Shown: positions 522 through 32,641 of the stretch, in pieces
Layout: each line of letters starts with the position of its first letter
Numbering within the stretch: the stretch's first letter is position 1
Assembly (NCBI GenBank): GCA_022545705.1
Contig: JACZQN010000007.1
Span: 1-39,283 of the forward strand
Length of the DNA: 39,283 nt
Reading direction: 5' to 3'
Origin: Nitrospirota bacterium
GTDB lineage: Bacteria > Nitrospirota > Nitrospiria > Nitrospirales > Nitrospiraceae
Notes under the pieces: generated by a model
Told to the model about the DNA's origin: nothing
What the model saw: only the letters and a program-made list of their open reading frames with translations
The model's database searches: none
Program-made: the position numbers and the translations under genes

Positions 522-551
522 AGAAAAATCCCCTCCTCTTATTAAATGATT

Positions 552-557: not shown

Positions 558-604
558 AACTACTTCGCATCAGACCCTACTGACCACTGACACCGAGGTT
601 CCTG

Positions 605-2415: not shown

Positions 2416-2422
2416 GCTCTTC

Positions 2423-2457: not shown

Positions 2458-2461
2458 TTAC

Positions 2462-3460: not shown

Positions 3461-3540
3461 AAGGACTTTCTCCTGTGTCCGCTAACAATCCCAAGGGGAG
3501 AGGCTGCGGTCGCTGCTGAACCAGCACGGCCGGCCGCAAC

Positions 3541-3570
3541 TTGACTTGTGACCCGCGCGTTCCATAAGAT
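3541..3570 (+). promoter_or_regulatory. Putative sigma70 promoter for the WD40 gene
   Basis: TTGACT at 3541-3546 and TAAGAT at 3565-3570 are separated by 18 bases, about 107 bases upstream of the WD40 start. It lies in the divergent region shared with the minus-strand gene that starts at 3460. The -10 box matches the consensus at four of six positions, so this is a candidate only. Confidence 0.3.
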
Positions 3571-3676
3571 GAAAACACCAAATTATAGCTGTCCCAAACG
3601 GCGGTTTGCAATCGCCTCTCGAGGAGGCCCGCCCTGCATATCCGCGAGGCCATGAAGAAGTCAGGGGAGCCCGCAG

Positions 3677-4783: not shown

Positions 4784-4785
4784 GC

Positions 4786-9200: not shown

Positions 9201-9401
9201 GCCGCGGGTCACCTGGGCTTCTATCCGCCGGGCCGCTTCAACAGCAATTTCCGCAAAGTTACCCCCGATGGCCCCGCGGAGGACCCGTCGTTCTGCAAAG
9301 TACGTGGGGACGAGTGAGAGGATGAGCGGGATCAGACCGACCATCACGATCGCGGCGATGATCTTCCGCTGGAGACCTTGTGTCCGACCCCAGAGTTTCA
9401 T
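6222..9401 (-). CDS. Membrane-bound multi-PAS sensor histidine kinase
   Basis: 1059 residues. A transmembrane helix lies at about 13-33. A periplasmic sensor region of roughly 300 residues with a Cache-like fold follows, then a second helix at about 338-358 and a HAMP domain. Three PAS domains follow, each ending in the RDIT signature that marks the PAS-associated C-terminal segment. The HisKA box has phospho-acceptor His844 in HEINNPLGG, and the HATPase_c domain shows N, G1 (DTGCGIP) and G2 (GTGLGLS) boxes. It should autophosphorylate and signal to the adjacent NtrC-type regulator. PAS repeats suggest redox, gas or ligand sensing, but no cofactor residue can be assigned. A good sigma70-like promoter lies immediately upstream. 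Confidence 0.92.
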   Translation of the reverse strand: MKLWGRTQGLQRKIIAAIVMVGLIPLILSLVPTYFAERRVLRGAIGGNFAEIAVEAARRIEAQVTRGINEAEQLATTPFLRTAVIEANRGYAGKDEARIQSMIRDWQRRWREREHRHEFPLFVNRIVTNHLIRWHDIRKSDYIGILVTDSQGALVISSIPQVEYYYGKREWWEAVINGERGEVFVSDLYFDPSFGTHVLNVSVPILDNAEQPRAVGAVTVLLRRDSLFHSISEVTIGATGHAMLMRSDGTPLICPLMSPEEHEVTPALLDHIVSPQAGWAVVANDSHGGRDSLVGFAPVRMRERLSAHSLGGKRWFTFVRQDPDETYTPLEQLLARVAGYGVVAFGVLLVAGVWAARQIVRPIGVLHEGAQRIGAGNLDHQLTLKTGDELEHLADAFNRMAANLKQSFGQLQQRMTDIRLLEEKYRDLIENSPEMIHQINRAGQFVHVNKTELDKLGYSREEMLRMRLWDIVPQGQEREILAYLEQLVSQGRGTIETVFLTREGRPVNVEIHSTALFDPDGGLIHSRAFVRDITQRKLLEQKVQQYTTQLEQEVADRTQQLAMSQKRYKALFDLAADSVFMVGQDGDIVAVNAREEQALGYSESQAVGTPFLEVVLPAYHDVTRSLLAKIIQGERQVPTEEIEVQNRAGAPVPVEMDLIRIDDGAATSVMVQLRDITERKRLEQQLQEYREELEVKVRERTREIEETKQYLENLLENANDVIYTLDTEQNFTYVNSKVEAWGYRKEDLIGRPYLSLLSKRHRGRRLKSTLDIGVKQVYEVELMSRTGQPREVMVSVSPLRDPEGRISGVLGIARDITDTKRLEQQIRSSEKLASVGKLAAGVAHEINNPLGGILNCLYNFRKGTLSPARQEEYLASIEDGLRRVQKIVRQLLDFSQQHEPECSPTNINAVVERVLVLTDPACVANSIRVERQLQTELPDLLVDRHMIEQVLMNLVLNAVQAIRGGGVIRIRTRTEVDRCKIDVEDTGCGIPPSILPHIFDPFFTTKGTGEGTGLGLSVSMGIVERHGGQILVESEVRKGTVFTVCLPLARERSLVGRTV

Positions 9402-17262: not shown

Positions 17263-19041
17263 TTATGCCTTACCCTTCCTCTTGTTCGCGCGCCGTGTGA
17301 GGACCCACCCTTCCAAGAACACGATGCCGACCGCGATCACGGTGGGATAGATGTAGGTTTCCATCGGAATCGGCGGAATCAACACGGTGTAGTAGAACGA
17401 CGAGACGGCTAACTTGCGGCCCACATCGCCGTTATGTCCATCCCAGACGAAGAAGACGGTGGGGATATACTTGCCCACCTCAAAATAGGTATCTTCTTCG
17501 TAATCCGCCTTTACCGGCCGCTTGAACACGAGCGTCCACCGGCCGTCCTCCCACTCGGCGTTGAGGAGTGTGAGGTCCATAGCAAAGATATCCCGGTCTT
17601 CAAAGTCCTGATCCCAGCCCAGGCCGGTAAAGGCTCGCAGAGAACCGTCAGCCTCCCATTTCACAATATCAACGGGGTACTTTTCGTTCCCCCAGAAAAA
17701 CCGCGGCTTCTCGGGGGGAGGAATCTCTTGCCACTTCACTGGAAATTGAATCGCAAGGGCGTCGTTAAACACCCGATACTTGTTCTGTGCGGCTGCAATC
17801 GAGCCTGGCTCTCCGGTCGTCGGAAGCTGCTCCGAGACAAGGCCGTAGTCTTCCAAGTTCACTTCGGTCGGATCCCACTCCTGCTCCTCTGTCGCAATGC
17901 TTTGCGAGCGGTCATTCCACTGGAACATGAACGCGATCTCTTTGTCGTTGTACAGCGAGCGCACCCACACGTCATCGATTCGGTTCACGAAATTCCGTGG
18001 CTTATGCGTAATCTGGCCACCCAATGCCACGAGGCGTCGCTCGCGATTCTGCCAAAGCTCATGGTTGGGATCTCCAGGGAGCTCCCCTTCGATCGGACTC
18101 GACAAGACGACGAACTTAACCTTCGGCTTGTCGGTCAGGGGGTCGATCGGAAGCGGTTCCCCGTCGGGCCCCCGTTCACACAGCGATTGTACGAAGTTGG
18201 AGAGATGCCAACGCTCTTCAATCGTGGTGTTGTCCGCAAAGGACGGCATCGGCGTGCCGTTCATCCCGGTTGAGAAGGTCCTGAAAATGTTTTTGACATC
18301 GTAGGGGTCCCGCCGGCTTCCCCTGAAGTTCCAGCACTTGGTCTGGTCGGCCGGCTGGATTGGAAATCCCCAGTCATCTTTCAGGTTGAAGGCATTGCCA
18401 TCTCCGCGGCCCTTCACGCCGTGACACTCGAAACACTTCTGCTCCACGAAGAGCTCAGCGCCCCTCTTCAGGCTCTCCTCGGTCGGTGGAATGGGCTCGA
18501 GGTCGTCGATCTGCAGCACGGTATAGGTTTCAAATTCCTTGTCGTCGAACTCGCGATCCTGCACGAGCTCGGCGGTCACGAACGCAAGCACTTGACGACG
18601 CTGCTTTTCGGTGAGGATTCCGTCCCAAGACGGCATGCCCGACCCTGGCAGTCCATGCGTGACGGTCTGGAGCAGATCAACATCCGGAAGCGGCAACTCG
18701 CCGCTGGCGGTATGCCGAATCTTGAAGGTCCCCTGATTGAAATTCCTTGGACGCGGCCAGAGCCGATCAGCGGCCGGACCGTCCCCGGCGCCATCTACGC
18801 CATGGCACCACACGCATTTGGTAAAGTAGACACGCTTCCCGGCTTCAACATCCCCTGCCGACGGCATCGCGGGAAAAGCGGCTGCCTTGAACCCCTCCGG
18901 GACTTCCTCGGCTTCCCCAGCGTCTTCATCTTCGTCTTGCGCATAGGTTAAAACCGACGCGCTTCCTGAGAAGACCAAGGCGGTCCCCGCCGCAGCGACC
19001 AGCAGCAGCATCCTTATTTGTGTAAACCAACGGTCCTTCAT
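17263..19041 (-). CDS. Membrane-anchored dihaem cytochrome c fused to an NxrC-like (EB_dh) haem-b domain
   Basis: 592 residues. A signal peptide or anchor (about 10-34) is followed by an acidic linker and two cytochrome c domains with haem motifs CVWCH (76-80) and CFECH (203-207), each with a later Met that could be the axial ligand. Residues about 305-555 match the ethylbenzene dehydrogenase gamma fold, predicting an additional haem b. One transmembrane helix near 563-583 ends in a basic tail, so the protein faces the periplasm. It is the last gene of the oxidase operon, not next to NXR. It could relay electrons from NXR or soluble cytochrome c to the oxidase (inference). It may also be read as a membrane form of NxrC. 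Confidence 0.86.
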   Translation of the reverse strand: MKDRWFTQIRMLLLVAAAGTALVFSGSASVLTYAQDEDEDAGEAEEVPEGFKAAAFPAMPSAGDVEAGKRVYFTKCVWCHGVDGAGDGPAADRLWPRPRNFNQGTFKIRHTASGELPLPDVDLLQTVTHGLPGSGMPSWDGILTEKQRRQVLAFVTAELVQDREFDDKEFETYTVLQIDDLEPIPPTEESLKRGAELFVEQKCFECHGVKGRGDGNAFNLKDDWGFPIQPADQTKCWNFRGSRRDPYDVKNIFRTFSTGMNGTPMPSFADNTTIEERWHLSNFVQSLCERGPDGEPLPIDPLTDKPKVKFVVLSSPIEGELPGDPNHELWQNRERRLVALGGQITHKPRNFVNRIDDVWVRSLYNDKEIAFMFQWNDRSQSIATEEQEWDPTEVNLEDYGLVSEQLPTTGEPGSIAAAQNKYRVFNDALAIQFPVKWQEIPPPEKPRFFWGNEKYPVDIVKWEADGSLRAFTGLGWDQDFEDRDIFAMDLTLLNAEWEDGRWTLVFKRPVKADYEEDTYFEVGKYIPTVFFVWDGHNGDVGRKLAVSSFYYTVLIPPIPMETYIYPTVIAVGIVFLEGWVLTRRANKRKGKA

Positions 19042-19071
19042 CGGTGAACTCCTGAGCGAGTGGATCTCAGA

Positions 19072-20112
19072 TTAATCCCAAGTCCTCGGATAAAACCCGG
19101 TATGCCAGTACTCAAAGAGAATCACTTTCCAGATCTCGTCTGTCGTGAGGTGCTCCTCCCACCGCGGCATCGTAGATGCCCAGGGGAATGACTCACGGGG
19201 CAGCCCGATGCCGCCCTTGGAAACGCGCCAGAACAGAAACGTTTCTTGAAGCTGAGCGATCGTGCCCGAGTCGGTAAAGTTGGCCGGAATCGGATTGAAC
19301 GCAAACGCGTGTAACCCTCGCCCGTTCAGATTATCCCCGTGGCAGAAATGGCAATTCTGGAAAAAGACTTCTCCACCTTCCCGAACATGTTTCAGGTAGC
19401 CCTTCGCATCCGGATCCCACGGATTCGCATCAGGCTTCATGAGCCGCCCCATGCCCTGCTCGACAATGAGGTCATCGGTGAACCCCTGGTCATATTTCCC
19501 TTCCAGATCGACACGGTAGGGATTCTGCGCGGTCTGGAGCACGAACGTTCTCCCATGCACTTTGGTGGTGGCCGGTGGTGCCGGGTGGACTGTCCTCAGC
19601 TCAATAGGCTCCTCCAGGCTCGGCAGGAAAGATTGATAGGAAAACCCCCAGAGCAAAGCCGGGATGGCGATCAAATAGAACGTTCTGAGCGCCTTGTGAA
19701 ACGGCGTCATGGCATCCAGCACGTTCAGGATGGGCTGCTTGAACTGCTTCCAGTCCTCTTCGTTGCTGGACACCCACATAAAGACGGCGACTGCCGACAC
19801 CGCCAAATAGAGGGCCCGCACGCTATAAGGGATCGGCGGATAGATCCGAAATTTCAGGTACAACAGGAGGAAGACCCAAAACAGGGTCCCCTGCCAAAAC
19901 TTGGGAATCGCCAGCCCGTTTTGCGCAAGGAGATAGCTGAGGAGCGCGAACACGCCGACACAGGCAGTCAGCTCAATGAGCACCTGCATCGGCATGTAGC
20001 CTGGAACTAACTGAATCATCTGGGGCGAAACGAGGCCGCTCGACATGAGGAAGATAACGGCAAGGAAGATCCCACCAATTATTCCGCCGGCCCACAGGAT
20101 AAGCGATTTCAT
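19072..20112 (-). CDS. Membrane monohaem cytochrome c, four-helix N-terminus
   Basis: 346 residues. Four predicted transmembrane helices lie in the first 160 residues (about 5-25, 43-63, 74-92, 97-115) with another hydrophobic stretch near 144-160. A periplasmic cytochrome c domain carries CHFCH at 254-258 and a Met-rich tail (ASTMPRWEEH) that could supply the sixth ligand. AAGGAG lies before the ATG. It sits between the 441-aa and 592-aa cytochromes in the oxidase operon, with gaps of about 50 and 30 bases. It is likely a structural subunit of the same membrane complex. Confidence 0.86.
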   Translation of the reverse strand: MKSLILWAGGIIGGIFLAVIFLMSSGLVSPQMIQLVPGYMPMQVLIELTACVGVFALLSYLLAQNGLAIPKFWQGTLFWVFLLLYLKFRIYPPIPYSVRALYLAVSAVAVFMWVSSNEEDWKQFKQPILNVLDAMTPFHKALRTFYLIAIPALLWGFSYQSFLPSLEEPIELRTVHPAPPATTKVHGRTFVLQTAQNPYRVDLEGKYDQGFTDDLIVEQGMGRLMKPDANPWDPDAKGYLKHVREGGEVFFQNCHFCHGDNLNGRGLHAFAFNPIPANFTDSGTIAQLQETFLFWRVSKGGIGLPRESFPWASTMPRWEEHLTTDEIWKVILFEYWHTGFYPRTWD

Positions 20113-20163
20113 CTTTGCGTCTCCTTACTTACACTGCTGCTTGCCGCCCAAAATCGGTAGATT

Positions 20164-21489
20164 CTATGTAATGGGAGGTGGCTCTTTCCCTTCCTCAAGT
20201 TGGGAAAGGTAGTCGACGATCTTGTTGACCGCTCCGGCGTCCAGGAGCTTCCCGAATTCCTTGGGCATTTGGTTGTCCGGAAAACCAGGCACCACAAACG
20301 CGCTTGGGTTCAGGATGGATTCCGTCACGTATTCTCGAACCGACTTCGCCTTTCCTCCTCCTGGCGACCTTTTGTACTCAGGGGACCTTAGTCTCCTTGG
20401 GGCACTGGTGCCCTCCTCGAGCTTCGGGCCGATCTTGCCAATTGCCCCTTCAATACCCGGTATCGTGTGACAGGTCACGCATACCCCCTTCGTAAAGATC
20501 TCGTTCACCGGCTCCTCGCCGGTCGCCAGAACCCCACCAGCCGCTGGGGCCTCTACGTCAGTGGCCGCCTTGGGACGATCAGCTTCAGGAATAAACTTCT
20601 CGTACGACGCGAGAATCTCGTCGAACGTGGGTGGCTCTTTCCCCTCACGAACATACATCCAGGTATCCACCGCCGCCAGCTCGCCAAGCGTCAAGGAGAT
20701 GGGCGGCTTATGGATCCTCGGCATCTGGCTTTCCCGGTCATTCGAGCCTTTGAGGCCGAACTCCTCCACCACAAAGCAACTCGGACAGGCATGCGATTCC
20801 GCAATGTATTCCTGGACAGTCTCAGCCGTGCCGGCCCCTGGGAACGCTTCTTTGTCAACGGTATCCCGTGCCTCGGGGTTGCCTTTGCTGTAACGCGGAT
20901 CCTCCAATCGCTCCTTCGATCGATCAGCGATCCCAAACAGATTGGGAGCCCGCTCGCTCAAAAAGCCTTTGTTAAACCCGTGACAGAGGGGACACTGGCC
21001 TTTCCCAATGGCACCCTGAACTCTGCTCTGGCCGATCCCGCCGAAGATAATCTTCTCGCCCTCGTCAGCCAACTGCAGGGGCGACATGCCGCTGAAATCC
21101 AACTTGACCTCCGGAGGAGGAAAGCCGCCTTCCACTTGGGGCAGCCAGTTTCCGTACCCCGAGAGCGCCGCCGCGACCAAGAACATGAACCCGCCGATCT
21201 TGAGCAGCGCACCGATGTTTTTGAAATAGATCCCCATCATGAACGCGAGGGCGGTGACCAGCACGAGGGAGACTGGGACAAGCCGTGAATTGCCGAAAAA
21301 GCTCACCTTAAAGTTTTCAATCGCCATCAACGCCAAGAGGGCAGCGATGATACCGATGAAGGTCTTGAAAACTGCGCGCTGCCTGACTTGGGGATCCTTG
21401 AGACCGAATTGGAAGTATACGAGTAGACAGAATAAAACAACCAACACCGGCCATCCAAGGACGATCGCTGAACCTACTAACTCCAGCAC
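20164..21489 (-). CDS. Membrane dihaem cytochrome c, four-helix N-terminus
   Basis: 441 residues. Four predicted transmembrane helices (about 7-27, 43-58, 70-88, 96-112) are followed by a periplasmic region with two c-haem motifs, CPLCH (166-170) and CVTCH (337-341). A CPSC at 235-238 lacks the histidine and is probably not a haem site; it may bind metal or form a disulfide. The start is a GTG at 21489 with GGGAGG upstream. It lies between the bd-like oxidase and the monohaem cytochrome, with an intercistronic hairpin at 21504-21538. It is the best candidate for direct electron delivery to the oxidase (inference). Confidence 0.86.
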   Translation of the reverse strand: MLELVGSAIVLGWPVLVVLFCLLVYFQFGLKDPQVRQRAVFKTFIGIIAALLALMAIENFKVSFFGNSRLVPVSLVLVTALAFMMGIYFKNIGALLKIGGFMFLVAAALSGYGNWLPQVEGGFPPPEVKLDFSGMSPLQLADEGEKIIFGGIGQSRVQGAIGKGQCPLCHGFNKGFLSERAPNLFGIADRSKERLEDPRYSKGNPEARDTVDKEAFPGAGTAETVQEYIAESHACPSCFVVEEFGLKGSNDRESQMPRIHKPPISLTLGELAAVDTWMYVREGKEPPTFDEILASYEKFIPEADRPKAATDVEAPAAGGVLATGEEPVNEIFTKGVCVTCHTIPGIEGAIGKIGPKLEEGTSAPRRLRSPEYKRSPGGGKAKSVREYVTESILNPSAFVVPGFPDNQMPKEFGKLLDAGAVNKIVDYLSQLEEGKEPPPIT

Positions 21490-21503
21490 CTGACAACCCT
21501 CCC

Positions 21504-21538
21504 TGGTCGCATCCTCGGCTGAACCGAGGATGCGACCA
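21504..21538 (-). promoter_or_regulatory. Intercistronic stem-loop between the bd-like oxidase and the dihaem cytochrome
   Basis: A perfect 15-base-pair stem with a CTGAA loop (21504-21518 with 21524-21538) lies between the oxidase stop at 21571 and the GTG start at 21489. There is no T-run, so it is not a standard terminator. It sits just before the ribosome site of the downstream gene. An RNA-processing or partial-termination role setting subunit ratios is plausible. Confidence 0.7.
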
Positions 21539-21570
21539 TTGAATTAGGATAGTAATTGGTTATGCAAAGG

Positions 21571-23523
21571 TTAGTGTCCAACAGCAGGCTGTGGGACTCT
21601 CCCGGGAACCGGAGCTGGCGCTTCCACAGGGACTTTCTTCACACCGAGCGTACCGAGCCAGAAGACGAACAGGATAGTGAACCAGAAGAACAACACGTTG
21701 AACGAAATCATATTCGCCGCGAAACCGGTCGTGTGGGTATAGGCCCAGGGCGAGTTATCCCGCATGATCTCGTTCACGTGCCAGAAGAGCCGGACCGAGG
21801 AGCGGATATACCCCATCAGCCCCATCATCCAGGTAAAGGCTGTGGCAAGCATAATCAGCGCGTACTGGGACCGCACTGAAATCTTCCCCCATTCAATCGG
21901 GCCGCTCATTTTTGCGCCCTTCAACATCGTGAGGTTCAGAGCCGTCATGAAGAAGAGACACGACAGTGTCGTGACCACCTGGGGGACCGACAGACCCACG
22001 CGGACATTCGCGGGGATGTAATACCCGTAAATGGCCAACCAGATGATATTGAGATACGCCAAGCCGAAGAAACATCCCATAAAGATATCGCCAAACTTGG
22101 CCCAGGGGACGATCGGCACCTTGTTTCCGCGCATATACCAGATGAAGCTCAGCACGGTGGTCGTGATAATGACGTTGATGCCTCCGTTCTTGGCTGACAT
22201 GACCCCGTAAGCGCCCAACACCGGGTGCTGCTGACCGCCCATTGCCTTGAGCTCGGTCGGCGTCATCACGATCGTGTGGGGGGTAATGAAAACCAAGAAG
22301 CCGACCACCAAGATGAACACAAGATATTTGATGTACCGTTGGTATTTTTCGGCGCCACGCATCCGCCCCAAGGCCTGCCACAGATAATAATTGGAGCTGA
22401 GGAACAGGATGCCGATCATGGTCGCCTGAATGATGAAGAGCCACGCAAGCAACCCGCCCATCAGGGTGATCCCCATCTGCTGGCGGTAGGCATAGACTTC
22501 TCGCATCAGCCAGTAGCCGGCAAACGGCAGCGGGATGAGGAACATGACGCCGATTGCCATCGCAACGTAGCCCATCCAGTCGTAGTGGGCACGCTCCTCA
22601 TCGTTCTTCGCCGACAAGAACCGGTACGCGGCATAGGCAGCCACCACGCCACCACCAAAGGCCATATTGCCCAGAAGCCGGTGGACATTGAGCGGGTTCC
22701 ACAGCGCGGTGTGGAGCACGTGCCAGATGTTCCCAAGATACCGCCCCTGCTCGTCCACCCCGGCCGGCGACATCATGAACCCGATCCAAGAATTCGCCAG
22801 CATCATCAAGGTTGTGCCGATCACGTTGAGGACGACCGACATGCTCAGATGGATCCATTTGAGCAGCCCTTCCTTCATCTTGTCCCAGCCGTAGTAATAG
22901 ATGTAAATCGTTCCGCTCTCGGCCACGAACAGCAGCGCGTAGATATGCATGACCGGCCGGAAGATGCTGGAGAGGTAGCCAAAGAAGGCTGGGTAGAGCG
23001 TCAGGAAGGTGAAGATCAAGATGCCGCCCAGAATCGCCGTGATCGAATAGGCGGTGATGCTGATTTTGATGAAGTCATACGCAAGCTGATCATACTTCTT
23101 CGACATGGCCTTGTCCTTCGACATGATCCCCACGAACTCGATGATCATGCAGAAGATGGGCACGGCGAGGACAAAGCTGCCGTAGTACAGATGCTGTTGG
23201 TTGGCAAACCAGAGAAGCACACGGCTCTCGAAATTATAACGGGGATAGGATCTAAGATCGTCTTCCGTTTTCGGGGCGGGCAGCCCGGACACGATGCCCT
23301 CAGTTTTGTAGTAGACGTCCCGACCCATCTCGACCTTCTGTCCTTCCTCGACAGCATCACCCTCTTGTTCCGCCAACACGTCGGGCGGTGGCCCGCCTGC
23401 TGCAGGCGCCCCTCCTCCAGCCGCAAGCGCGGGTATGGAGACAAGGATCGGGAACATCAGGAGGCCAATCATCGCGCTCAGCGCCATGATCGCCATCAGC
23501 TTCTTCCTGGTCTGACCGCCCAT
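21571..23523 (-). CDS. Cytochrome bd-like oxidase, 650 aa (Nitrospira-type)
   Basis: A polytopic membrane protein with an N-terminal signal or anchor helix (10-34), a short exported segment and about 14 further hydrophobic helices. It resembles the unusual bd-like oxidases described in Nitrospira as putative terminal oxidases. Conserved histidines include His111 (in QQH, comparable to a CydA haem ligand), His193, His225, His268, His271, His281, His416, His433 and His582. The CydA quinol-loop motif GRQPW is not seen, so electrons may come from the co-encoded cytochromes c, not quinol (inference). AAGGAGG precedes the ATG. It follows two tiny membrane proteins. A closely similar paralogue lies at 27330-29231. 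Haem types and oxygen reduction are not provable from sequence. Confidence 0.86.
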   Translation of the reverse strand: MGGQTRKKLMAIMALSAMIGLLMFPILVSIPALAAGGGAPAAGGPPPDVLAEQEGDAVEEGQKVEMGRDVYYKTEGIVSGLPAPKTEDDLRSYPRYNFESRVLLWFANQQHLYYGSFVLAVPIFCMIIEFVGIMSKDKAMSKKYDQLAYDFIKISITAYSITAILGGILIFTFLTLYPAFFGYLSSIFRPVMHIYALLFVAESGTIYIYYYGWDKMKEGLLKWIHLSMSVVLNVIGTTLMMLANSWIGFMMSPAGVDEQGRYLGNIWHVLHTALWNPLNVHRLLGNMAFGGGVVAAYAAYRFLSAKNDEERAHYDWMGYVAMAIGVMFLIPLPFAGYWLMREVYAYRQQMGITLMGGLLAWLFIIQATMIGILFLSSNYYLWQALGRMRGAEKYQRYIKYLVFILVVGFLVFITPHTIVMTPTELKAMGGQQHPVLGAYGVMSAKNGGINVIITTTVLSFIWYMRGNKVPIVPWAKFGDIFMGCFFGLAYLNIIWLAIYGYYIPANVRVGLSVPQVVTTLSCLFFMTALNLTMLKGAKMSGPIEWGKISVRSQYALIMLATAFTWMMGLMGYIRSSVRLFWHVNEIMRDNSPWAYTHTTGFAANMISFNVLFFWFTILFVFWLGTLGVKKVPVEAPAPVPGRVPQPAVGH

Positions 23524-23620
23524 AGCGAACCTCCTTAACAGTAACGACAGTGTTCAGCCAGCGCGTGGGAATCTTCAGGCTCGCGAGTCCTCGCGCACCC
23601 GGCCGACTGAACGTCGCACG

Positions 23621-23833
23621 TCATTTCCGGAACAGATACCAATAGTCCAGCCCTTGGTTATCCATCAAATAATGATTGACCAAGTGGAAATAGGCTATCG
23701 CGAACAGCAGGGAAAGAGTTACTGCGACATAGGTGTTATTCAAGAGTGCCTGGTTCTTCTTCCAAATCACCACGATCAGGACCACGGACAGCCCCATCAA
23801 CGCGTACCAAAAATTTGGGTTCGTTACATCCAT
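23621..23833 (-). CDS. Small two-helix membrane protein in the oxidase operon
   Basis: 70 residues with two predicted transmembrane helices (about 8-24 and 35-53) and a basic segment between them. No family is recognised. GGGAGA lies about 6 bases before the ATG. Its position just upstream of the bd-like oxidase (97-base gap) and after another single-helix ORF suggests a small accessory subunit, in the way CydX accompanies classical cytochrome bd (analogy only). Confidence 0.72.
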   Translation of the reverse strand: MDVTNPNFWYALMGLSVVLIVVIWKKNQALLNNTYVAVTLSLLFAIAYFHLVNHYLMDNQGLDYWYLFRK

Positions 23834-23872
23834 CTTACGTCTCCCACTTGATGAGGCCCAGGCAGGAATCGA

Positions 23873-23989
23873 TCAGCATGGGCATTGAATCCCGTTCAAC
23901 CAATAAAACCACCCTATGCCCAACGCGGCGGTGATGTAAAAGATTGCTTTGCCGATTTTGATCTGGATATCGTCTTCTAGTGCTTGCAT
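23873..23989 (-). CDS. 38-residue single-helix membrane protein, first gene of the oxidase operon
   Basis: A short ORF starting at the ATG 23989-23987, with GAGGAG about 6 bases upstream, and ending in TGA at 23873. The protein has an acidic N-terminus (ALEDDIQIKIGK), one hydrophobic helix (about 15-34) and ends in CPC. It precedes the 70-aa gene by 39 bases on the same strand. The strong ribosome site, the position and the membrane helix support a real small oxidase-associated subunit. Confidence 0.6.
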   Translation of the reverse strand: MQALEDDIQIKIGKAIFYITAALGIGWFYWLNGIQCPC

Positions 23990-24128: not shown

Positions 24129-24248
24129 ATGAGGACGCATGAAATGGCTAGGAGTTCAAGATTATTCGATATTATAGTTTTGGCCGGTTTGACTGTCAAT
24201 ATAATTTTGGCTGTCTTCCTGATCCTCTATTACTTTGATTTTCTTTAA
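24129..24248 (+). CDS. 39-residue plus-strand single-helix membrane ORF
   Basis: The ATG at 24129 is preceded by GAGAGG at 6-base spacing, and the frame ends with TAA at 24248. After a short basic N-terminus (MRTHEMARSSR) there is one long hydrophobic helix (about 13-34) and a short YYFDFL tail. The region is AT-rich compared with its flanks. It lies alone on the plus strand, between the oxidase operon and the SUMF1-like gene whose stop is at 24252 (convergent, 3 bases apart). An alternative minus-strand frame at 24014-24199 starts with TTG, has no good ribosome site and is less convincing. Unknown function; possibly a toxin-like or regulatory peptide. Confidence 0.5.
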   Translation: MRTHEMARSSRLFDIIVLAGLTVNIILAVFLILYYFDFL

Positions 24249-24251
24249 CTT

Positions 24252-25157
24252 TCAGCTCGCCTGAGCGGGCGTTTCCCCACCCAAAATCTTCCCGGTTATC
24301 GCGCAGCGGAAGCCAATTGTTTCATCCCGAAAACCCGGTACCATGCGGCTCCGGCTCGTAATCCGGACATCGTTTCCCCTGCTCATGTACCCACCCCCGC
24401 GCATCACCTTATAGACGCCATGATCGGGCCCCATGGGGTTTCTCTTACTCGCATGACGATAGGCATCCTCCCCATACCAATCCTCAACCCACTCCATGAC
24501 ATTCCCGGCACCGTCCACCACCCCAAAGGGACTCACGTCCCGTTCGAAGGTTCCAACAGGCGCAGTGAATCGGTACCCGTCTTCGTTCCCCCAGTTTGAC
24601 GCTGTGCGCTCCAGCGCATTTCCCCAGGGCCAGAGCCGGCCATCCGTTCCGCGCATAGCCTTTTCCCACTGGGCTTCGGTCGGGAGGCGCTTGCCCCTCC
24701 ACCGGCAGTAGGCATCGGCATCCTCCCATGACACATACACGACCGGCTGGTTCGGGTCGCGCAAGCGCGCGATGTTTTTCGCGTACCGGGACGGTGGAGC
24801 AGCCTTGCGGTGGCCTGTCGCGGCCCGAAATTCTTGGTAGTGGCGATTCGTCACTTCGTAACGATCAATCAGATATGTGTCCAGGTGGACGGTTCCCTCA
24901 GGCTTTTCATCGTAGCCACCGGCGTTCGTCCCGCGGAGAAAGCTGCCGGCCGGGATGCGCACTATTTGTGGTTCGATCGGCGCCTGGCTGACGGCAACTG
25001 TGGTTCCGGCTCCCGGTTGATTGTCCGTCTCTTGCGCATCGGGGGAACCCACCTCGGGCGGAGGCGGCTTGGTCCCTCTCAGAATCCCCATCACCGGCAG
25101 GCTCGTCATGAACAAGACTGCCAGCAGAATAGCTACTTTGAACTTCGTTTCGAGCAT
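24252..25157 (-). CDS. Membrane-anchored SUMF1/FGE-fold protein (copy 1)
   Basis: 301 residues. An N-terminal helix (about 8-25) anchors or exports the protein, followed by a Pro-rich linker and an FGE-sulfatase (SUMF1) domain from about residue 65. Typical motifs are the RIPAGSFLRGT start, VSWEDADAYCRW with RLPTEAQWEKA, and NVMEWVEDWYG. The last part, VMRGGGYMSRGNDVRITSRSR, lacks the cysteine pair used by true formylglycine-generating enzymes, so it is probably not catalytic in that way. It lies at the end of the second oxidase locus, 152 bases after its paralogue at 25310-26200. A periplasmic structural or maturation role is possible, but unproven. Confidence 0.85.
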   Translation of the reverse strand: MLETKFKVAILLAVLFMTSLPVMGILRGTKPPPPEVGSPDAQETDNQPGAGTTVAVSQAPIEPQIVRIPAGSFLRGTNAGGYDEKPEGTVHLDTYLIDRYEVTNRHYQEFRAATGHRKAAPPSRYAKNIARLRDPNQPVVYVSWEDADAYCRWRGKRLPTEAQWEKAMRGTDGRLWPWGNALERTASNWGNEDGYRFTAPVGTFERDVSPFGVVDGAGNVMEWVEDWYGEDAYRHASKRNPMGPDHGVYKVMRGGGYMSRGNDVRITSRSRMVPGFRDETIGFRCAITGKILGGETPAQAS

Positions 25158-25183
25158 GGCTCCCAGGAGCGCTCTTCGTTATA

Positions 25184-25298
25184 CGTGATGCGTGAATCGC
25201 GGGGCAGTTGACAAGCGAGCAAGCTGACAGGCGGACAAGGTCCGGATAGGAGCTCGTCAGCTCACCCGCGCTTCACGGTTCACGCTTCACGTTTCACG
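25184..25298. repeat. Inverted array of heptameric and octameric repeats
   Basis: Between the two SUMF1-like genes, cgtgatg and cgtgaat (25184-25197) face four heptads cttcacg, gttcacg, cttcacg, tttcacg (25271-25298) in the opposite sense, so the ends can pair. Between them four octads run ttgacaag, cgagcaag, ctgacagg, cggacaag (25208-25239). A 13-base inverted match (cgtgaatcgcggg against cccgcgcttcacg, one mismatch) strengthens the hairpin. Related in design to 30354-30442. Confidence 0.75.
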
Positions 25299-25309
25299 TC
25301 TTTTGGCCG

Positions 25310-26200
25310 CTAATCGGGGTCCTTGGCGCACCGCAGCCCGATGGTGCTGTCAGTCCGCCACATGTTCGCCTGAAACCGCTTCGTAAGCCTGGCGCCCTGC
25401 GGGGTCTCACGCCATGAGCCTCCTCGAATGACCTTATGCTGCCCGTCACGGGGCCCCGTTGGATCACGATACGGTGTATCCTGGTAATAGTGCTCCTCAT
25501 AGGTGTCGGCCACCCATTCGGCCACATTTCCGGTCATCTCATAGAGCCCGTACGGACTTCTCCCCGACTCAAAGGAGCCCGGCGGCGCCAAGTACTGAAA
25601 TCCATCCTCCTCACCATCAACGTTCGCGCGGCCAGTTCCGAACTCGTCACCCCACGCATAGCGCCGCCTTCCTTCTCCCCGGGCCGCTTTCTCCCACTCC
25701 GCTTCGGTCGGCAGCCGCTTGCCCGCCCACCGACAATAGGCAACCGCGTCGCTCCATGACATCCCCATGGCCGCCAGCTCCGGACTCGTGATCTTGGAAA
25801 TATCATCGTCGAACACCGGCACAAACGGTTTGCCACGCTTGGTCATGCGCACGAAGCGCTCGTACTCGCCCTGAGTCACCTCTTTCAGATCCATGTAAAA
25901 CGACTTGAGATAGATCTGGTGCACCGGCGCCTCGTCAGGATCCCCCCCGGTGCTTCCCATTGTAAAAGGCCCCTCGGGAATCTCAACCATCTCGCGTCCT
26001 TCGTCACCGATGACCGTCCTGTACATCGAAAAATCCTGTGCCGCGACTGTGGCAACACGGGGGCGCTCGGTCTCGATCGAGGCGACCAATTCGCGCTGCT
26101 GTTTGGTCTTGTACGATTCGTACATCAGGCTCACGACCATGAGAAGGAACGACCCGAAGACGAACACGATCGCCCCGATCAGCACGCCTCTACTTTCCAT
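25310..26200 (-). CDS. Membrane-anchored SUMF1/FGE-fold protein (copy 2)
   Basis: 296 residues. An N-terminal transmembrane helix (about 7-27) is followed by a short charged linker and an FGE-sulfatase domain from about residue 72 (EIPEGPFTMGS), with AVAYCRWAGKRLPTEAEWEKAARG and GNVAEWVADTY. The C-terminal IRGGSWRETPQG segment lacks the catalytic cysteines of formylglycine-generating enzymes. The domain faces the periplasm if the helix is an uncleaved anchor. It follows the 127-aa membrane gene by 79 bases in the second oxidase locus, and its paralogue follows after a repeat island. A tandem duplication is likely, although the two have diverged clearly. Confidence 0.86.
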   Translation of the reverse strand: MESRGVLIGAIVFVFGSFLLMVVSLMYESYKTKQQRELVASIETERPRVATVAAQDFSMYRTVIGDEGREMVEIPEGPFTMGSTGGDPDEAPVHQIYLKSFYMDLKEVTQGEYERFVRMTKRGKPFVPVFDDDISKITSPELAAMGMSWSDAVAYCRWAGKRLPTEAEWEKAARGEGRRRYAWGDEFGTGRANVDGEEDGFQYLAPPGSFESGRSPYGLYEMTGNVAEWVADTYEEHYYQDTPYRDPTGPRDGQHKVIRGGSWRETPQGARLTKRFQANMWRTDSTIGLRCAKDPD

Positions 26201-27329: not shown

Positions 27330-29231
27330 TCAAGAGGAAGGCATCTCCCTGGAGGTGGACGGCAAGAACGCTACGCGATTCTCCGGTCCCTGCTCGGTCC
27401 AGGAGATAGGCGGACGACTTCGGCTGCTGATCCAGAACAGCACCAGGACAACCATCCAGAACACCACCATGTTCACCGTGACCATTTTTGCGGCGAACCC
27501 CAGCGAGGGCGTGAAAGCCCACGGCGACAGATCCGGCATCAGCTCATGGATATGCCAGGAAAGCCGACCCGAAGACCGGATATATCCCATCAGACCCATC
27601 ACCCAGGTAAACGAGGCCGCCAGTCCGCAGAGGGCCACCATGCCCCGTACCGGGATTTTGCCCCACGCGATCGGGCCGTGTGATTTCGCCCCGCGCATCA
27701 TCGCCTGGTTGACCAGGAGGCTGCCCACAAGCACCGTCAGGGTGGTAAACGCCTGAGGCGAAGAGAGCCCCACCCGGACATTGGCCGGAATATAAAAGCC
27801 GTACACCGCCAACCAGACGATGTTGAGCATTCCGACCCCGAACAGGACCGCGATCGTCGCATTCCCGGCTCGCGCCCACGTGATCGTCATGGTCCGGTTC
27901 GCCCGTCGATACAGGATGTAGCTCAAGGCCGTGAGACAGATCATCACGTTAATGGCCCCGTTCTTGGCAGACATGACTCCGTAATTCCCGATCACCGGAT
28001 GCTGCGCGCCCCCCATCGCCTTGACCTCGGTCGCCGTCATGATCAGCGTGTGCGGCGTGAGCCAGACAAAGAGGCAGCCCGTCAGGGCAAGGACCAGATA
28101 CTTGAGAAAACGCTGATACCGCTCGGCCCCCTGGATGCGGCTCATCCCCTGCCAGAGATAGTAATTGATCCCGAGGAACAAGACCCCGATCATCAGGGCT
28201 TGCACCACGAACAGCCACGTGAGCAGCCCGCCCATCATGGTCACACCCATGCTTTGCCGGAACTCATAGACAGACCGCATGAGCCAATAGCCGGCAAACG
28301 GCATCGGGAGCAAGGCACACACCGTGACAAACAGGAAGACGTACCCGACCCAATCGTAATACGCCCGTTCCTGTTCGGATTTGCTGGTCAGGAACCGGTA
28401 GGCGGCATAGGCCATGACCACGGCGCCTCCGGACATCAGGTCGGCCAGAAACCGGTGGACGTTAAGAGGGTTCCAGAGCGCCGAGTGCAGCAGGTGCCAC
28501 ACGTTGCCAAGGTACCGGCCCTGCTCATCGACACCGGAGGGCGCCATCATGAACCCAGCCCACGCATTCACCAGCAACAGCAAGACACCCCCGAGCACGT
28601 TCGCGACGACCCCGATCGTAGCGTGGAGCCATTTCAGTCCTGGCTCGGCCATCCTGTCCCAACTGTAGTAATAGCTTACCAAGAAGATGGCCTCGGCCAG
28701 GAACACGAACGCGTACACCGGCATCATCACCTTGAACGTGCCGCCCATGTAACTCATGAAGGTGGGGTAGAGCCAGATGAACAGCCCGAGCATCACGACT
28801 CCGACCACCGCGGTCAGCGAGAAAGCGAGCAGCGCCACCTGAAGGAAATCACGAGCCAGCCGGTCGTATCGGACGGCCGAGGCTCTGTCTCGCGCAATCA
28901 GCCCCGCAAACTCGAGGATCACGCAGAAAATCGGGAGGGCCAGCACGAACCCGCCGAAATAGGTGTGCTGCTGCGTGACAAACCAGATCAGGGTCCGGTT
29001 ATCGAGCGACCCGTAGCGACGGTAGGATGAGGCGTCAGTGGATGGCACCGGCGGACCAAGGGGGACCCCCTCGGTCTTATAATAGATATCTGTCGCCGTT
29101 TCCGTTGTCGTCTGCCCTGAAGCAGCCTCGATTGCAACACCGAGCGTGCCGATGGCTAGGACAAGCACACAGACCACGGCGGTGAGCGGGATCAGCAGCC
29201 TGGACTTGTGAAGCATCCCCAGTGTGACCAT
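27330..29231 (-). CDS. Cytochrome bd-like oxidase paralogue, 633 aa
   Basis: Clearly homologous along its whole length to the 650-aa oxidase at 21571-23523, with the same YYKTEG exported segment, QQH motif (His89), NVWHLLHSALWNPLNVHR cluster, LTPHT and AQHPV histidines, and SWH near the end. It differs at two histidines of the paralogue: the residue matching His193 is Pro and the one matching His313 is Tyr. It lacks the neighbouring cytochrome c genes and has a DUF3047 gene downstream and an unknown membrane gene upstream. AGGGAG lies before the ATG. It may be an alternative oxidase, a non-catalytic relative, or an enzyme for a different substrate; sequence alone does not decide. Confidence 0.84.
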   Translation of the reverse strand: MVTLGMLHKSRLLIPLTAVVCVLVLAIGTLGVAIEAASGQTTTETATDIYYKTEGVPLGPPVPSTDASSYRRYGSLDNRTLIWFVTQQHTYFGGFVLALPIFCVILEFAGLIARDRASAVRYDRLARDFLQVALLAFSLTAVVGVVMLGLFIWLYPTFMSYMGGTFKVMMPVYAFVFLAEAIFLVSYYYSWDRMAEPGLKWLHATIGVVANVLGGVLLLLVNAWAGFMMAPSGVDEQGRYLGNVWHLLHSALWNPLNVHRFLADLMSGGAVVMAYAAYRFLTSKSEQERAYYDWVGYVFLFVTVCALLPMPFAGYWLMRSVYEFRQSMGVTMMGGLLTWLFVVQALMIGVLFLGINYYLWQGMSRIQGAERYQRFLKYLVLALTGCLFVWLTPHTLIMTATEVKAMGGAQHPVIGNYGVMSAKNGAINVMICLTALSYILYRRANRTMTITWARAGNATIAVLFGVGMLNIVWLAVYGFYIPANVRVGLSSPQAFTTLTVLVGSLLVNQAMMRGAKSHGPIAWGKIPVRGMVALCGLAASFTWVMGLMGYIRSSGRLSWHIHELMPDLSPWAFTPSLGFAAKMVTVNMVVFWMVVLVLFWISSRSRPPISWTEQGPENRVAFLPSTSREMPSS

Positions 29232-29240
29232 GTGCTCCCT

Positions 29241-30323
29241 TCAGCCTCGCCGTCCTGCTTCGCCCGATGCGGCATTCGCCGGCTGGACAGCCCCCCCACC
29301 CGATGCCATCCTGGACTTAGACAAGATGCCCATGACGAATGGGCAACGCAGTAAGGAGGGCGGAACGGTCTCCTGAATCCGGTTCTCCACATAGCGGCGA
29401 TGCCCGAGGTAATAACCATAGAGCCCCATCAATCCCCCTACCGCCGCGGCGGCCAGAGCCTGAAACGCCGGCAGCCTCGCGTCCATGCTGAGGGCGAACC
29501 AGGCCGCTCCCACCAGCGTCAGGTAATAGGTGGCCGCAAACGTTAGGCCCGGCCACCACCAGAACCGAAACAGCTCAGCCCAACTCACCGAGCCAAGCCT
29601 GAGCTTCCATCCATCCAGGCGCTGCTCTCCAGCCAGATAAGCCCACACCGCCAAGCTGCCGGCGAACAGGCAGACGACCACGAGCTGGCCGAGCTCGGTG
29701 CGACCGACCTCGGCGAGGTGAGCCACTCCGACCCCCAAGAGAGCGCAGCCTGCGGCGCCCAGCAACGACCACTTCGCGAGGACCCACGGTCGCTCGAGAA
29801 ACAGGGCGCGCAGCGGGGCGCCATCAGGAAAGGTCAAGATCGGTTCCCCCTGCCGCTGAATCCGCCGGACGTGCCCGATCTCGAACGCATCACGCGCCAC
29901 GGAGGTGCAGGCGATGATGATGGCGATCATGGCCGGACCATCCGGATGAACCAGGAAATCATAGTTCACGAATACTTTGAGCAAAGCCAGGACCATCAGG
30001 GAGAGTTGGACGCCATAGACAAATCCGATCCAGCCGACCACCCAGCTCAGCCTTCGCACTCCGTCTTCGTTCCAGATCGCAGTCGGGCTCTCGCCACGCC
30101 CGAGCCCATACACACACCCCGCCGTGACGGCTGACAGCAGCCCACTCACCGCCAAGAGGATCAAAGGATCGGAGAGCGGAACGACGAGCTTGAGGAGCCG
30201 GTAGATGAGAAACGCCACCAGGCCGGACGCCAGCATCACCCACCGCTTCCGCTTCCGCACCGAGTCCGCGGTCACTGCGAGCGCGAGCCGCGGCATCACC
30301 CGCAATGCAAGTCTGTGGATCAT
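29241..30323 (-). CDS. Unknown polytopic membrane protein
   Basis: 360 residues with roughly eight predicted transmembrane helices, starting at about residues 27, 55, 92, 127, 188, 212, 258 and 285, and a soluble loop at about 145-185. No family is recognised; no haem or metal motif is evident. The C-terminal 40 residues are polar and probably disordered. It ends 9 bases before the bd-like oxidase paralogue, on the same strand, so a role as a partner or assembly factor of that oxidase is reasonable (inference from position). Confidence 0.75.
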   Translation of the reverse strand: MIHRLALRVMPRLALAVTADSVRKRKRWVMLASGLVAFLIYRLLKLVVPLSDPLILLAVSGLLSAVTAGCVYGLGRGESPTAIWNEDGVRRLSWVVGWIGFVYGVQLSLMVLALLKVFVNYDFLVHPDGPAMIAIIIACTSVARDAFEIGHVRRIQRQGEPILTFPDGAPLRALFLERPWVLAKWSLLGAAGCALLGVGVAHLAEVGRTELGQLVVVCLFAGSLAVWAYLAGEQRLDGWKLRLGSVSWAELFRFWWWPGLTFAATYYLTLVGAAWFALSMDARLPAFQALAAAAVGGLMGLYGYYLGHRRYVENRIQETVPPSLLRCPFVMGILSKSRMASGGGAVQPANAASGEAGRRG

Positions 30324-30353
30324 AACCAGTCTCTTTCCAACAAGCGCGAGACG

Positions 30354-30442
30354 TCATGCGTGATGCGTAATGCGTGACGGGTACTGAAGAACTCATTAAT
30401 CATCACTCAACACTCATCACGCTTCACGCGTCACGCTTAACG
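30354..30442. repeat. Inverted heptameric repeat array reaching into the PCP_red gene
   Basis: Left array: tcatgcg, tgatgcg, taatgcg, tgacggg (30354-30381). Right array: catcact, caacact, catcacg, cttcacg, cgtcacg, cttaacg (30401-30442), opposite in sense so the two can form a long imperfect hairpin. The right array overlaps the last codons and the stop (30424-30426) of the PCP_red gene, encoding its terminal KRDA. Same type as 25184-25298. Confidence 0.8.
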
Positions 30443-30924
30443 GAAGCCATGCCGAAGTAGCGCGCTTTCACTTCGTCCATCAAGGACACCGTCACGCGTG
30501 ACACTCCGCGCTCGGCCGCCGTTCGTTCCAATTCGATTCGCGCCATGGCCCGAACGGGGGCCGGCACATTCTCCAGTCGCCGTTCAGCCTCAGGCTCCCA
30601 ATCGACTTGCCCACCCTGCCTGGCCTGGTTCATGAGCGCAAAGGTGACGACGCGTCGGCCCTTGGATCGCGCATAGTCTTCCACCTCGGACTTGACCAGA
30701 GGCGCCAGGTACGGGGGCATCCGGTCCAGCCGGTGCCGTGCATCATCCGTCCACATCACCCGATCAACCAGGGCCTCGGCGTCGTCGAACGGGGTCTCCA
30801 CCCCCACGCGAAGACCGCACCCCCGACATTCCGAGCGCAGGAACAGGGTTTCCGCTCCGGGTCCGGCCGCTCTCTCTTCCAGGCCCTCCGTGTGCATCCA
30901 CCGGCCACAGCCGCAGATCAACAT
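30424..30924 (-). CDS. PCP_red-domain protein with N-terminal zinc-ribbon-like cysteines
   Basis: 166 residues. Two tandem copies of the domain named for the C-terminus of protochlorophyllide reductase subunit ChlB/BchB (PCP_red) lie at about 58-100 and 109-155, each with a WxxxAxxRLxxxPxxxR start. The N-terminus has Cys4, Cys6, Cys33 and Cys36, which could bind zinc or iron. The organism shows no sign of chlorophyll synthesis here; in other bacteria this domain occurs alone and its role is not known. It begins 4 bases after the DUF420 gene. The C-terminal KRDA is encoded by a repeat unit, which may have changed the original end. Confidence 0.78.
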   Translation of the reverse strand: MLICGCGRWMHTEGLEERAAGPGAETLFLRSECRGCGLRVGVETPFDDAEALVDRVMWTDDARHRLDRMPPYLAPLVKSEVEDYARSKGRRVVTFALMNQARQGGQVDWEPEAERRLENVPAPVRAMARIELERTAAERGVSRVTVSLMDEVKARYFGMASVKRDA

Positions 30925-30928
30925 GTGC

Positions 30929-31645
30929 TCACCCGATCTTCCCCGGATAGAGGATGTACAGCATCGTGTAGGTCGCGCTCCCGGTCACGAACAGGACACA
31001 ATAAATGATCATCGTGAAACGACCGAGCATACGATGCCGGCGGGCCCCGTTGGGCCAAATCCGCTGGATCACCATTTCCAAGCTGAACACGATTGCGATC
31101 AACACGAGCAGAGAGAGCCAGACCACCAACTTCCCCACCCCAAACCGGTCCACACCGACGAGGAACAACAAATAGGCCACCACGATTGCCGTGATGACTC
31201 CGAAGATTGTGATGACCTTCCTCCAGGTCGTCCGCAGCGCCATCTCCTTGAGAACGCGTCTCCCGCCCTGGATCACTTGCACGCGGAACCCGAGCACGAT
31301 CATGTAGATGGCCATGACCAGGCCGATAGTCACCAGGGTAATATGAAAGGTCAGGAGCGGCACGAATACGTTCTCGTAAAGCGCCTCCGGGCCGCCGAAC
31401 CCTTCCTTCCCCTCGAACGCCAGCACCCCGAGCTGCCGGAAGAGGTAGTAGCTCGTGAAGAATACGATCATCGCGGTCATACCTCCGAGCATCAACCAGT
31501 GATGGGGATGGCCACGCACCCGCCTGGCCTGGAACCACCCGATTACGAAGAGGACGGTAAAGAGCGCCGCCATGGACTGGCTTAAGTCCGCGCCGATCGT
31601 CGCGTGCGTTCCATAGAAGCCCGGCTCTTTGAGCCATTCCAACAT
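30929..31645 (-). CDS. DUF420 (CtaM-like) membrane protein
   Basis: 238 residues with about six transmembrane helices. The segment FGGPEALYENVFVPLLTFHITLVTIG, with a conserved histidine, and the HPHHW loop near residue 46 match the DUF420 family. Its Bacillus member CtaM is needed to assemble haem-A oxidases. Here it could serve assembly of the neighbouring bd-like oxidase paralogue (inference). It follows the methyltransferase by 12 bases and precedes the PCP_red gene by 4, an operon-like arrangement. Confidence 0.82.
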   Translation of the reverse strand: MLEWLKEPGFYGTHATIGADLSQSMAALFTVLFVIGWFQARRVRGHPHHWLMLGGMTAMIVFFTSYYLFRQLGVLAFEGKEGFGGPEALYENVFVPLLTFHITLVTIGLVMAIYMIVLGFRVQVIQGGRRVLKEMALRTTWRKVITIFGVITAIVVAYLLFLVGVDRFGVGKLVVWLSLLVLIAIVFSLEMVIQRIWPNGARRHRMLGRFTMIIYCVLFVTGSATYTMLYILYPGKIG

Positions 31646-31657
31646 GGTCCCGCCTCC

Positions 31658-32641
31658 TTACACCCGCTTGCTTCCCTGAATCACAGCGGTCTGCTCGAGT
31701 TCCTCGACCAACTCGAACCCGGCTTGCTCCATCCAATGTCTGGCTTCAGACACTGTATAACAGCGCCCTCGCGCGGTATTGACCAAGATATGCACCGCAA
31801 ATGCCGTCGTCCACGCAGGGCTGGTCCCCGATTGATCCAGAAACCGATCCTTGATGACGAGGCGCCCCCCCGTTGTGACATGTGCAAAGGCCTTTCGCAC
31901 CAACGCCGCATTCGCGTCAGCACCCTGATAGTGGAGGATATCCGACATGAGCACAACGTCATAGGGCCCTCCCAGCGGATCGGCGTTGAAATCTCCTGCC
32001 TTCAATGTGATCCGGGACTCCAGCCCAGCCTCTTTGACTGTGCGCTCTGCTACCGTAAGGGTTTGGGGAAGGTCGAATACCGTGGCTCGCATGTCCGGGT
32101 ACGTCGTGCAGAACGCGATCGCGTTCGTGCCGGCACCTCCTCCTAGATCGAGGAGCGTCTTGGCATGATCCAGTTCCAGCCGCTGCGCCAAGGCCGGGCC
32201 GCTCTGCTGCCCGATACGGTGCAGCACCGATAGGACATGAGCGCCGAGTTCCGGGTCCGCTTCAAACACGTGGCGGCTGACCGGTGAGCGACCGGTGCGG
32301 AGTGTCTCCTCCAGCGAGCCCCAATTGTTCCATTCCGCATCGTGCAAAAGAAGTAAGTGCCCGACATATTGTGGCGACCCTTTCACCAGATGAGTTCGCG
32401 CTGCTTCGGCGTTTGCAAATCGGTCCCCATCTTTATTCAACACCCGCATCGCGACCAAAGCATTCATCAGCAAGGTAAGCGCTCGTTCGTCCGCCCCAAT
32501 CCGTTGGGCCAGCTCAGCGACGGTGCGCTGCTTCCCACCCAACGCCGAAAACACCTCGAGCGTGACCGCGGTCAGGAGGATCTTTGTCTCCCAGTAGTAG
32601 CCGACTTGGAAGATTTCGGCGAGCGACAATTCGCGCGGCAC
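31658..32641 (-). CDS. SAM-dependent O-methyltransferase (BchU/CrtF/acetylserotonin type)
   Basis: 327 residues. A winged-helix dimerisation domain (about 10-95) is followed by a class I SAM-binding fold with motif I LDLGGGAGTNA near 171 and a GGRLVIKDRF segment. The family methylates small hydroxylated molecules and includes tetrapyrrole and carotenoid enzymes; the substrate here is unknown. The start is a GTG at 32641 with GGAGG upstream. It leads the run methyltransferase-DUF420-PCP_red. The pairing with a PCP_red protein hints at tetrapyrrole chemistry (speculative). Confidence 0.86.
   Translation of the reverse strand: MPRELSLAEIFQVGYYWETKILLTAVTLEVFSALGGKQRTVAELAQRIGADERALTLLMNALVAMRVLNKDGDRFANAEAARTHLVKGSPQYVGHLLLLHDAEWNNWGSLEETLRTGRSPVSRHVFEADPELGAHVLSVLHRIGQQSGPALAQRLELDHAKTLLDLGGGAGTNAIAFCTTYPDMRATVFDLPQTLTVAERTVKEAGLESRITLKAGDFNADPLGGPYDVVLMSDILHYQGADANAALVRKAFAHVTTGGRLVIKDRFLDQSGTSPAWTTAFAVHILVNTARGRCYTVSEARHWMEQAGFELVEELEQTAVIQGSKRV

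Follow-up and report, generated by a model that had tools for sequence, protein, structure and literature searches.

Where do the electrons handled by the bd-like module of Nitrospira-type bacteria come from, and where do they go? The question is raised by a six-gene unit in a 39,283-nt stretch of DNA from a Nitrospirota bacterium of the order Nitrospirales (JACZQN010000007.1), hereafter referred to as the window, which corresponds to contig C3 in a genome of 2.17 Mb and 94.6% completeness. The unit codes for two tiny transmembrane (TM) proteins, a bd-like protein, two membrane cytochromes c and a protein resembling subunit NxrC of nitrite oxidoreductase (NXR), termed alt-NxrC. It had been predicted to form a terminal oxidase that is fed by cytochrome c and accepts electrons from nitrite oxidation. 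Two long-standing open questions are touched: by what means electrons are driven uphill to quinone in nitrite oxidisers and anammox bacteria, and which protein of Nitrospira is responsible for oxygen reduction. The unit is the known bd-like_3/alt_NxrC_2 cluster, described in its essentials before. It is real and very conserved in Nitrospira-type bacteria, and a role as nothing more than the O2-consuming enzyme of nitrite respiration is improbable. We tentatively favour, with a probability of about 0.42, a membrane complex in electron exchange with high-potential cytochromes c of the periplasm, reverse flow to quinone being likelier than oxygen reduction.

Gene order and occurrence of the module

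Six genes follow each other on the minus strand from position 23989 to position 17263, just as had been predicted. The encoded proteins have 38, 70, 650, 441, 346 and 592 aa, and the intergenic gaps are 39, 97, 81, 51 and 30 nt. With the flanking signals, the features are, in the direction of transcription:

24171..24199, minus strand: sigma-70 promoter TTGACA-17-TATAAT, a 12/12 consensus match, 210 nt 5' of the first ATG
23873..23989, minus strand: 38-aa single-TM protein (MQALEDDIQIKIGKAIFYITAALGIGWFYWLNGIQCPC), with a homologue of 37-55 aa in 11/11 Nitrospirales loci
23621..23833, minus strand: 70-aa TM protein with a C-terminal QGLDY motif and homologues in Nitrospirales
21571..23523, minus strand: 650-aa bd-like (CydA-superfamily) subunit of the bd-like_3 type (PF01654, E = 2e-15)
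20164..21489, minus strand: 441-aa dihaem cytochrome c with N-terminal TM helices and two CXXCH motifs, a homologue of Kustd1711
19072..20112, minus strand: 346-aa monohaem cytochrome c with N-terminal TM helices, one CXXCH motif and an invariant M315
17263..19041, minus strand: 592-aa alt-NxrC with a dihaem c domain, an EB_dh/NxrC-like domain and a C-terminal TM helix
17200..17238, minus strand: intrinsic terminator GAAAAAGGGGGTGGG-CGAA-CCCACCCCCTTTTTC

Judged from their sequence, the six genes are a single transcription unit. The arrangement is not a matter of chance, because no Nitrospirales locus that was compared at length departs from the gene order. All 11 Nitrospirales loci (three families) have a 12/12 sigma-70 site in the gap between the SUMF gene and the 38-aa gene, 150-210 nt from the latter, and shuffled sequence never or almost never matches it. 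For the other Nitrospiria orders (8 genomes), the best upstream promoter site scores 10-12/12, which in 2/8 is not beyond shuffles. The strong terminator that had been noted behind the unit consists of a 15-bp hairpin and a U-tract (-39 kcal/mol, z -5.7), and a hairpin terminator of the GGGGGTGGG type is found 3' of alt-NxrC in 11/11 Nitrospirales loci. The exact boundaries of the predicted unit are new relative to the literature found.

The core order (bd-like, dihaem, monohaem, alt-NxrC) does not vary among the 11 Nitrospirales loci, and 8/8 genomes from the other Nitrospiria orders have it as well. Co-occurrence of the cytochrome genes with the oxidase gene in related genomes, which the original prediction had proposed as its check, was found in all of these loci. 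Since anammox bacteria have the same order (see below), we consider the core a functional unit. In the other orders, the flanking genes are housekeeping genes and give no hint of an electron donor.

The cluster of Nitrospira moscoviensis is among the top-40 transcripts, and its role was left to be determined in the account given there (PMC6606698). The part of that report devoted to the cluster describes the components shared with the window, namely the bd-like oxidase, two membrane-bound cytochromes c and the dihaem alt-NxrC, which has a single TM helix. That part makes no mention of tiny TM proteins, a perfect promoter or haem-b ligand loss. As far as it is described there, bd-like_4 is located a few genes from bd-like_3; this also applies to the window, where its equivalent is encoded at 27330-29231, and to 11/11 Nitrospirales loci.

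The 38- and 70-aa ORFs are taken to be real genes on the basis of their conserved position and of a C-terminal ending kept in other orders. Most of the other Nitrospiria orders (8 genomes) have a small single-TM ORF in the place of the 38-aa gene. They also have small TM ORFs 5' of the bd-like gene, which end in LMKxQGLxYF or QNLxYPY and resemble the 70-aa protein. No small TM ORF was found 5' of the bd-like gene in the nine anammox loci checked. The two proteins are comparable in size to the CydX-type helpers of cytochrome bd and are probably small subunits. They are new relative to the literature found and, as part of a six-gene unit defined by promoter and terminator, would be two additional subunits to expect in a purified complex.

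Both alt-NxrC and NxrA were searched in 158 Nitrospirota genomes. NxrA was found in 46/54 Nitrospirales and in none of the 9 genomes from other Nitrospiria orders. Nevertheless, eight of these nine code for the bd-like_3 module, with 61-66% identity of the bd-like protein, and the ninth (G246) has an anammox-like version. Two genomes from Nitrospirales family f4 (G004, G008) have matches to alt-NxrC and to the bd-like protein but none to NxrA. Family f4 is, as we infer, UBA2166, a family that was called non-nitrifying together with other Nitrospiria in a 2025 survey (PMC12342949) and that also fixes CO2 via the reductive tricarboxylic acid cycle. In all, 11 Nitrospiria genomes without detectable nxrA have the module or a close version, and no frame of NxrA length (~1,145 aa) was found among their molybdopterin-family matches. 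A strict link of the module to NXR was thus rejected. The module must have a role that extends beyond NXR, and electron supply from nitrite oxidation does not hold as the defining role. The occurrence of the bd-like_3 module without NXR is new relative to the literature found.

A bd-like match was obtained in 147/147 Nitrospirales genomes searched, which for one genome (G009) is a distant paralogue only. This genome, from the same order (family f2), matches nxrA on three contigs, yielded no alt-NxrC and matches the bd-like protein only weakly; at 90% completeness, the absence may be a genome gap. Another genome (G045), from the same family as the window, consists of one contig at 99% completeness; it carries the operon, but neither an NxrA match nor a molybdopterin frame of NxrA length was found. 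It is either a non-nitrifying member or has lost repeated nxr copies during assembly.

Outside Nitrospiria, the module has been reported from Nitrospina and Kuenenia (PMC3578206; PMC8026999). A candidate for the same module is TO_1 from Candidatus Manganitrophaceae, Nitrospirota without nitrification genes, in which a bd-like protein is accompanied by a 'periplasmic cytochrome b' (PMC9040806).

Anammox bacteria are anaerobes. Using Kuenenia Kustd1711 as a query (sequence from the PDB alignment), 31 anammox loci were collected. In 27/31, the bd-like, dihaem, monohaem and alt-NxrC genes have the same order and orientation, with alt-NxrC cut by a contig end in 2 of the 27. The remaining four are cut by a contig end or have a broken frame, and an alternative order did not occur. 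In Kuenenia, where kustd1709-kustd1712 belong to the anammox nxr cluster (PMC6423088; PMC11791136), the likeness to the window consists of the four gene types and their identical order. There are also differences: the anammox bd-like protein belongs to a separate clade (about 40-43% identity), the dihaem protein is devoid of most N-terminal helices, and alt-NxrC keeps both haem-b ligands, of which the window protein has neither. When NO replaces nitrite, transcripts of kustd1709-1712 drop 2.2, 5.0, 4.7 and 5.2 fold, alongside those of nxrA, nxrB and nxrC, although protein levels did not track this fall (PMC6423088). The two haems of Kustd1711 have potentials of about +350 mV (PMC11791136). Taken together, presence in anammox bacteria, co-regulation with nxr and the +350 mV potential point to electron exchange at a nitrite-like potential and speak against a shared function in O2 reduction. 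Oxygen does not explain a module that is present in anaerobes, just as NXR does not explain one that is present in non-nitrifying Nitrospiria.

Haem sites of the cytochromes c, alt-NxrC and the bd-like core

As predicted, the unit codes for five c-haem motifs: two, one and two CXXCH in the 441-, 346- and 592-aa proteins, respectively, all kept in homologues. The c haems have conserved candidates for a distal Met (identified by inspection in the case of the second haem in the 441-aa protein) and are probably of the high-potential His/Met type. The homology of the 441-aa protein to Kustd1711 (PDB 7zs0/9fbk) has an E-value of 4e-10.

In alt-NxrC, an EB_dh domain was recognized (PF09459, E = 6e-15), and the N-terminal half matches PDB 6h5l_B (E = 6e-48). 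The b-type haem expected for this subunit is, however, not supported. In NXR-C from Kuenenia, the axial ligands of haem b are Met155 and Lys305 (PMC8387239); according to the PDB alignment and a homologue alignment, they are replaced by W450 and L544 in the window protein. All 25 full-length anammox alt-NxrC sequences keep both residues. The 18 sequences from Nitrospiria (11 from Nitrospirales and 7 from other orders) have neither: the Met position is occupied by W in 6, F in 8 and H in 4, the Lys position by M in 14, T in 3 and L in 1. The NxrC-like fragment at the left end of the window retains the Met motif (QCMG). Thus, the haem-b site was lost in Nitrospiria and kept in anammox bacteria, for which no earlier report was found in the literature. 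It follows that alt-NxrC from Nitrospiria does not act as an ordinary NXR gamma subunit, and that the window is left with five c haems in addition to those of the bd core, however many these may be.

The functional roles of the E. coli CydA residues used for comparison are established. Based on an alignment with E. coli CydA and the collected relatives, the 650-aa protein shares the N-terminal helix bundle and retains H19, H126, H186 and E107 (CydA numbering), but K252, E257, E99 and E445 are not retained. M350 and M355 align to K252 and E257. The quinol-binding GRQPW loop, already noted as missing, is replaced by VRLFW, and extra hydrophobic helices take the place of the Q-loop. The haem b595 ligand E445 aligns to S575 and is non-Glu in all paralogues, while CydA M393 falls in a poorly aligned stretch. 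E585 (WHVNE) was considered as the counterpart of E445 but was rejected, because E445 precedes GRQPW and aligns to S575. A CydB partner was not found in the operon, where cytochromes c are encoded instead, and the 650-aa protein has no match to PF00115 (COX1).

H416 and H582 are present in nearly all bd-like paralogues from Nitrospira and anammox bacteria, and H433 in all paralogues save the P0005 clade. His193, which adjoins the position of CydA E99, is invariant in 48/48 bd-like_3 proteins and absent from the other paralogues and from anammox proteins; it might be an additional haem ligand. Being homologous to CydA but devoid of the quinol site, as is typical of Nitrospirota, the 650-aa protein is a candidate OR-N protein. 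It belongs to the same superfamily as the OR-N1/OR-N2 (NIDE0901-like) CydAA' oxidase from Nitrospirales (PMC12342949), with which it shares the missing quinol site and several invariant His. It differs by the clade-specific His193 and His271. The presumed OR-N1/OR-N2 counterpart is encoded on contig C96, together with cytochrome b and Rieske protein.

In a tree covering the paralogues and the anammox proteins, the 650-aa protein clusters with those from other Nitrospiria orders. The anammox proteins form a separate clade near paralogue P0004, with long branches that leave the deep order unsure. An AlphaFold2 model from 22 sequences was poor, with a predicted local distance difference test (pLDDT) score of 55.6. 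A fold search with this weak model returned only CydA chains from PDB at E<=0.001 and no haem-copper chain among the 50 matches listed.

Electron flow to quinone, to oxygen or elsewhere

In the favoured reading, the bd-type haem-b core without quinol loop, the two single-TM helpers and the three membrane-anchored cytochromes c would make up one complex. Electrons would enter via the five high-potential c haems on the periplasmic side. The core would most likely hand them to the quinone pool (methyl-plastoquinone in Nitrospira), consuming proton motive force, and this reduction would belong to the reverse electron transport that serves CO2 fixation. Oxygen reduction would be left to another bd-like pair, which is encoded with complex III (cytochrome b, Rieske, cytochromes c) on contig C96 and is the published complex IV candidate of Nitrospira. 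In Nitrospiria, the NxrC-like domain would no longer be the haem-b entry from NXR, its part being taken over by the c haems. The favoured reading is supported by the potentials: the Kustd1711 haems, at about +350 mV, are close to nitrite/nitrate and far above methyl-plastoquinone, which has +57 mV in Nitrospira (PMC12324825). Neither the missing quinol site nor the proposal of reverse electron transport is new; both have been stated before (PMC3578206). It is tempting to generalize the OR-N bd-like module to a new cytochrome c:quinone reductase driven by proton motive force, a dedicated machine for reverse electron transport that is common to anammox bacteria and Nitrospiria and accepts any high-potential donor (nitrite, Mn(II) or other). 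This wider proposal we regard as somewhat doubtful.

Several points weigh against quinone reduction by the module. The canonical quinone site is lost, and none is identifiable in the core. Published models assign the step from nitrite to quinone to a reversed complex III. The bd-like cluster TO_1 of Mn oxidisers, which may be the same module, was named a terminal oxidase (PMC9040806). The haem ligands barely distinguish the 650-aa protein from the presumed oxidase paralogue P0004, and ligands by themselves do not discriminate oxidase from non-oxidase among the four paralogues. In a genome from another order (G212), the module contains the only bd-like protein found; COX1 was not found genome-wide, and canonical CydA/B were not found in 2.0 of 2.4 Mb. 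Thus, the module could be the oxidase there, if this organism breathes oxygen. Finally, the assembly of the six proteins into one complex is something we infer from sequence.

The second of the two leading options, close to the original prediction and not the better supported, is a cytochrome c-fed OR-N bd-type oxygen reductase in aerobic Nitrospiria, with another job, or the removal of trace O2 or NO, in anammox bacteria. We consider it rather unlikely, although O2 reduction by the module is possible in aerobic Nitrospiria. In its favour, the quinol site is gone, five high-potential c haems with conserved distal Met are available, the CydA-superfamily core keeps H19/H186/E107, and OR-N enzymes have been proposed as cytochrome c oxidases in the literature. 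Haem-copper COX1 was found in only 3/13 genomes checked, including that of the window (weak match), and G212 fits as well. Against it, the core occurs in obligate anaerobes, where it is co-regulated with nxr, Nitrospira has the other bd-like pair beside complex III, and no paralogue has Glu at the b595 position E445.

Alternatively, the module might be a membrane anchor and relay, in which alt-NxrC docks soluble NXR, the c haems feed soluble cytochromes or complex III, and the bd-like protein is mainly structural. Such a role was suggested for alt_NxrC_2 in the description of the N. moscoviensis cluster (PMC6606698) and would be consistent with the EB_dh/NxrC-like domain and C-terminal TM helix of alt-NxrC, as well as with the true NxrC-like gene fragment and the TorD-like chaperone in the window. 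We nevertheless consider it quite improbable, since both haem-b ligands are lost in 18/18 alt-NxrC from Nitrospiria, even though the NxrC fragment in the window keeps its Met motif, and since the module occurs in genomes without nxrA. A cytochrome c-fed bd-like enzyme that detoxifies NO or reactive oxygen would suit both anammox bacteria and nitrifiers, and bd-type proteins of other bacteria can handle NO and peroxide, but this reading can practically be set aside, given the very high expression in normal growth (top-40 transcripts in N. moscoviensis) and the NO feeding of Kuenenia, which lowers rather than raises the transcripts.

Neighbouring genes

The module is part of a longer conserved neighbourhood. 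Genes for a methyltransferase, DUF420, PCP_red, a 360-aa protein, bd-like_4, DUF3047, a 127-aa protein, two SUMF1 proteins, the six-gene unit and MobA are colinear in Nitrospirales (11 loci) as far as the stretches reach.

The left part of the window (1-9401) codes for an NxrC-like fragment (3-521), a TorD-like chaperone (605-1579), a 4Fe-4S protein (1837-2415), a WD40 protein (3677-4783), a sigma-54 regulator (4786-6225) and a PAS/Cache histidine kinase (6222-9401). It resembles the nitrite-oxidiser cluster NITMOv2_3614-3631 from N. moscoviensis (PMC12342949) and is cut by the contig end.

The two SUMF1/FGE-like proteins are encoded at 24252-26200, and every Nitrospirales locus compared has two such genes between its bd-like genes; in other orders, at least one SUMF1/FGE-like protein is encoded 5' of the bd-like gene in most loci. 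The region 27330-32641 codes for the second bd-like protein (633 aa), the 360-aa TM protein without family match, the PCP_red-domain protein, DUF420 and a BchU-related O-methyltransferase.

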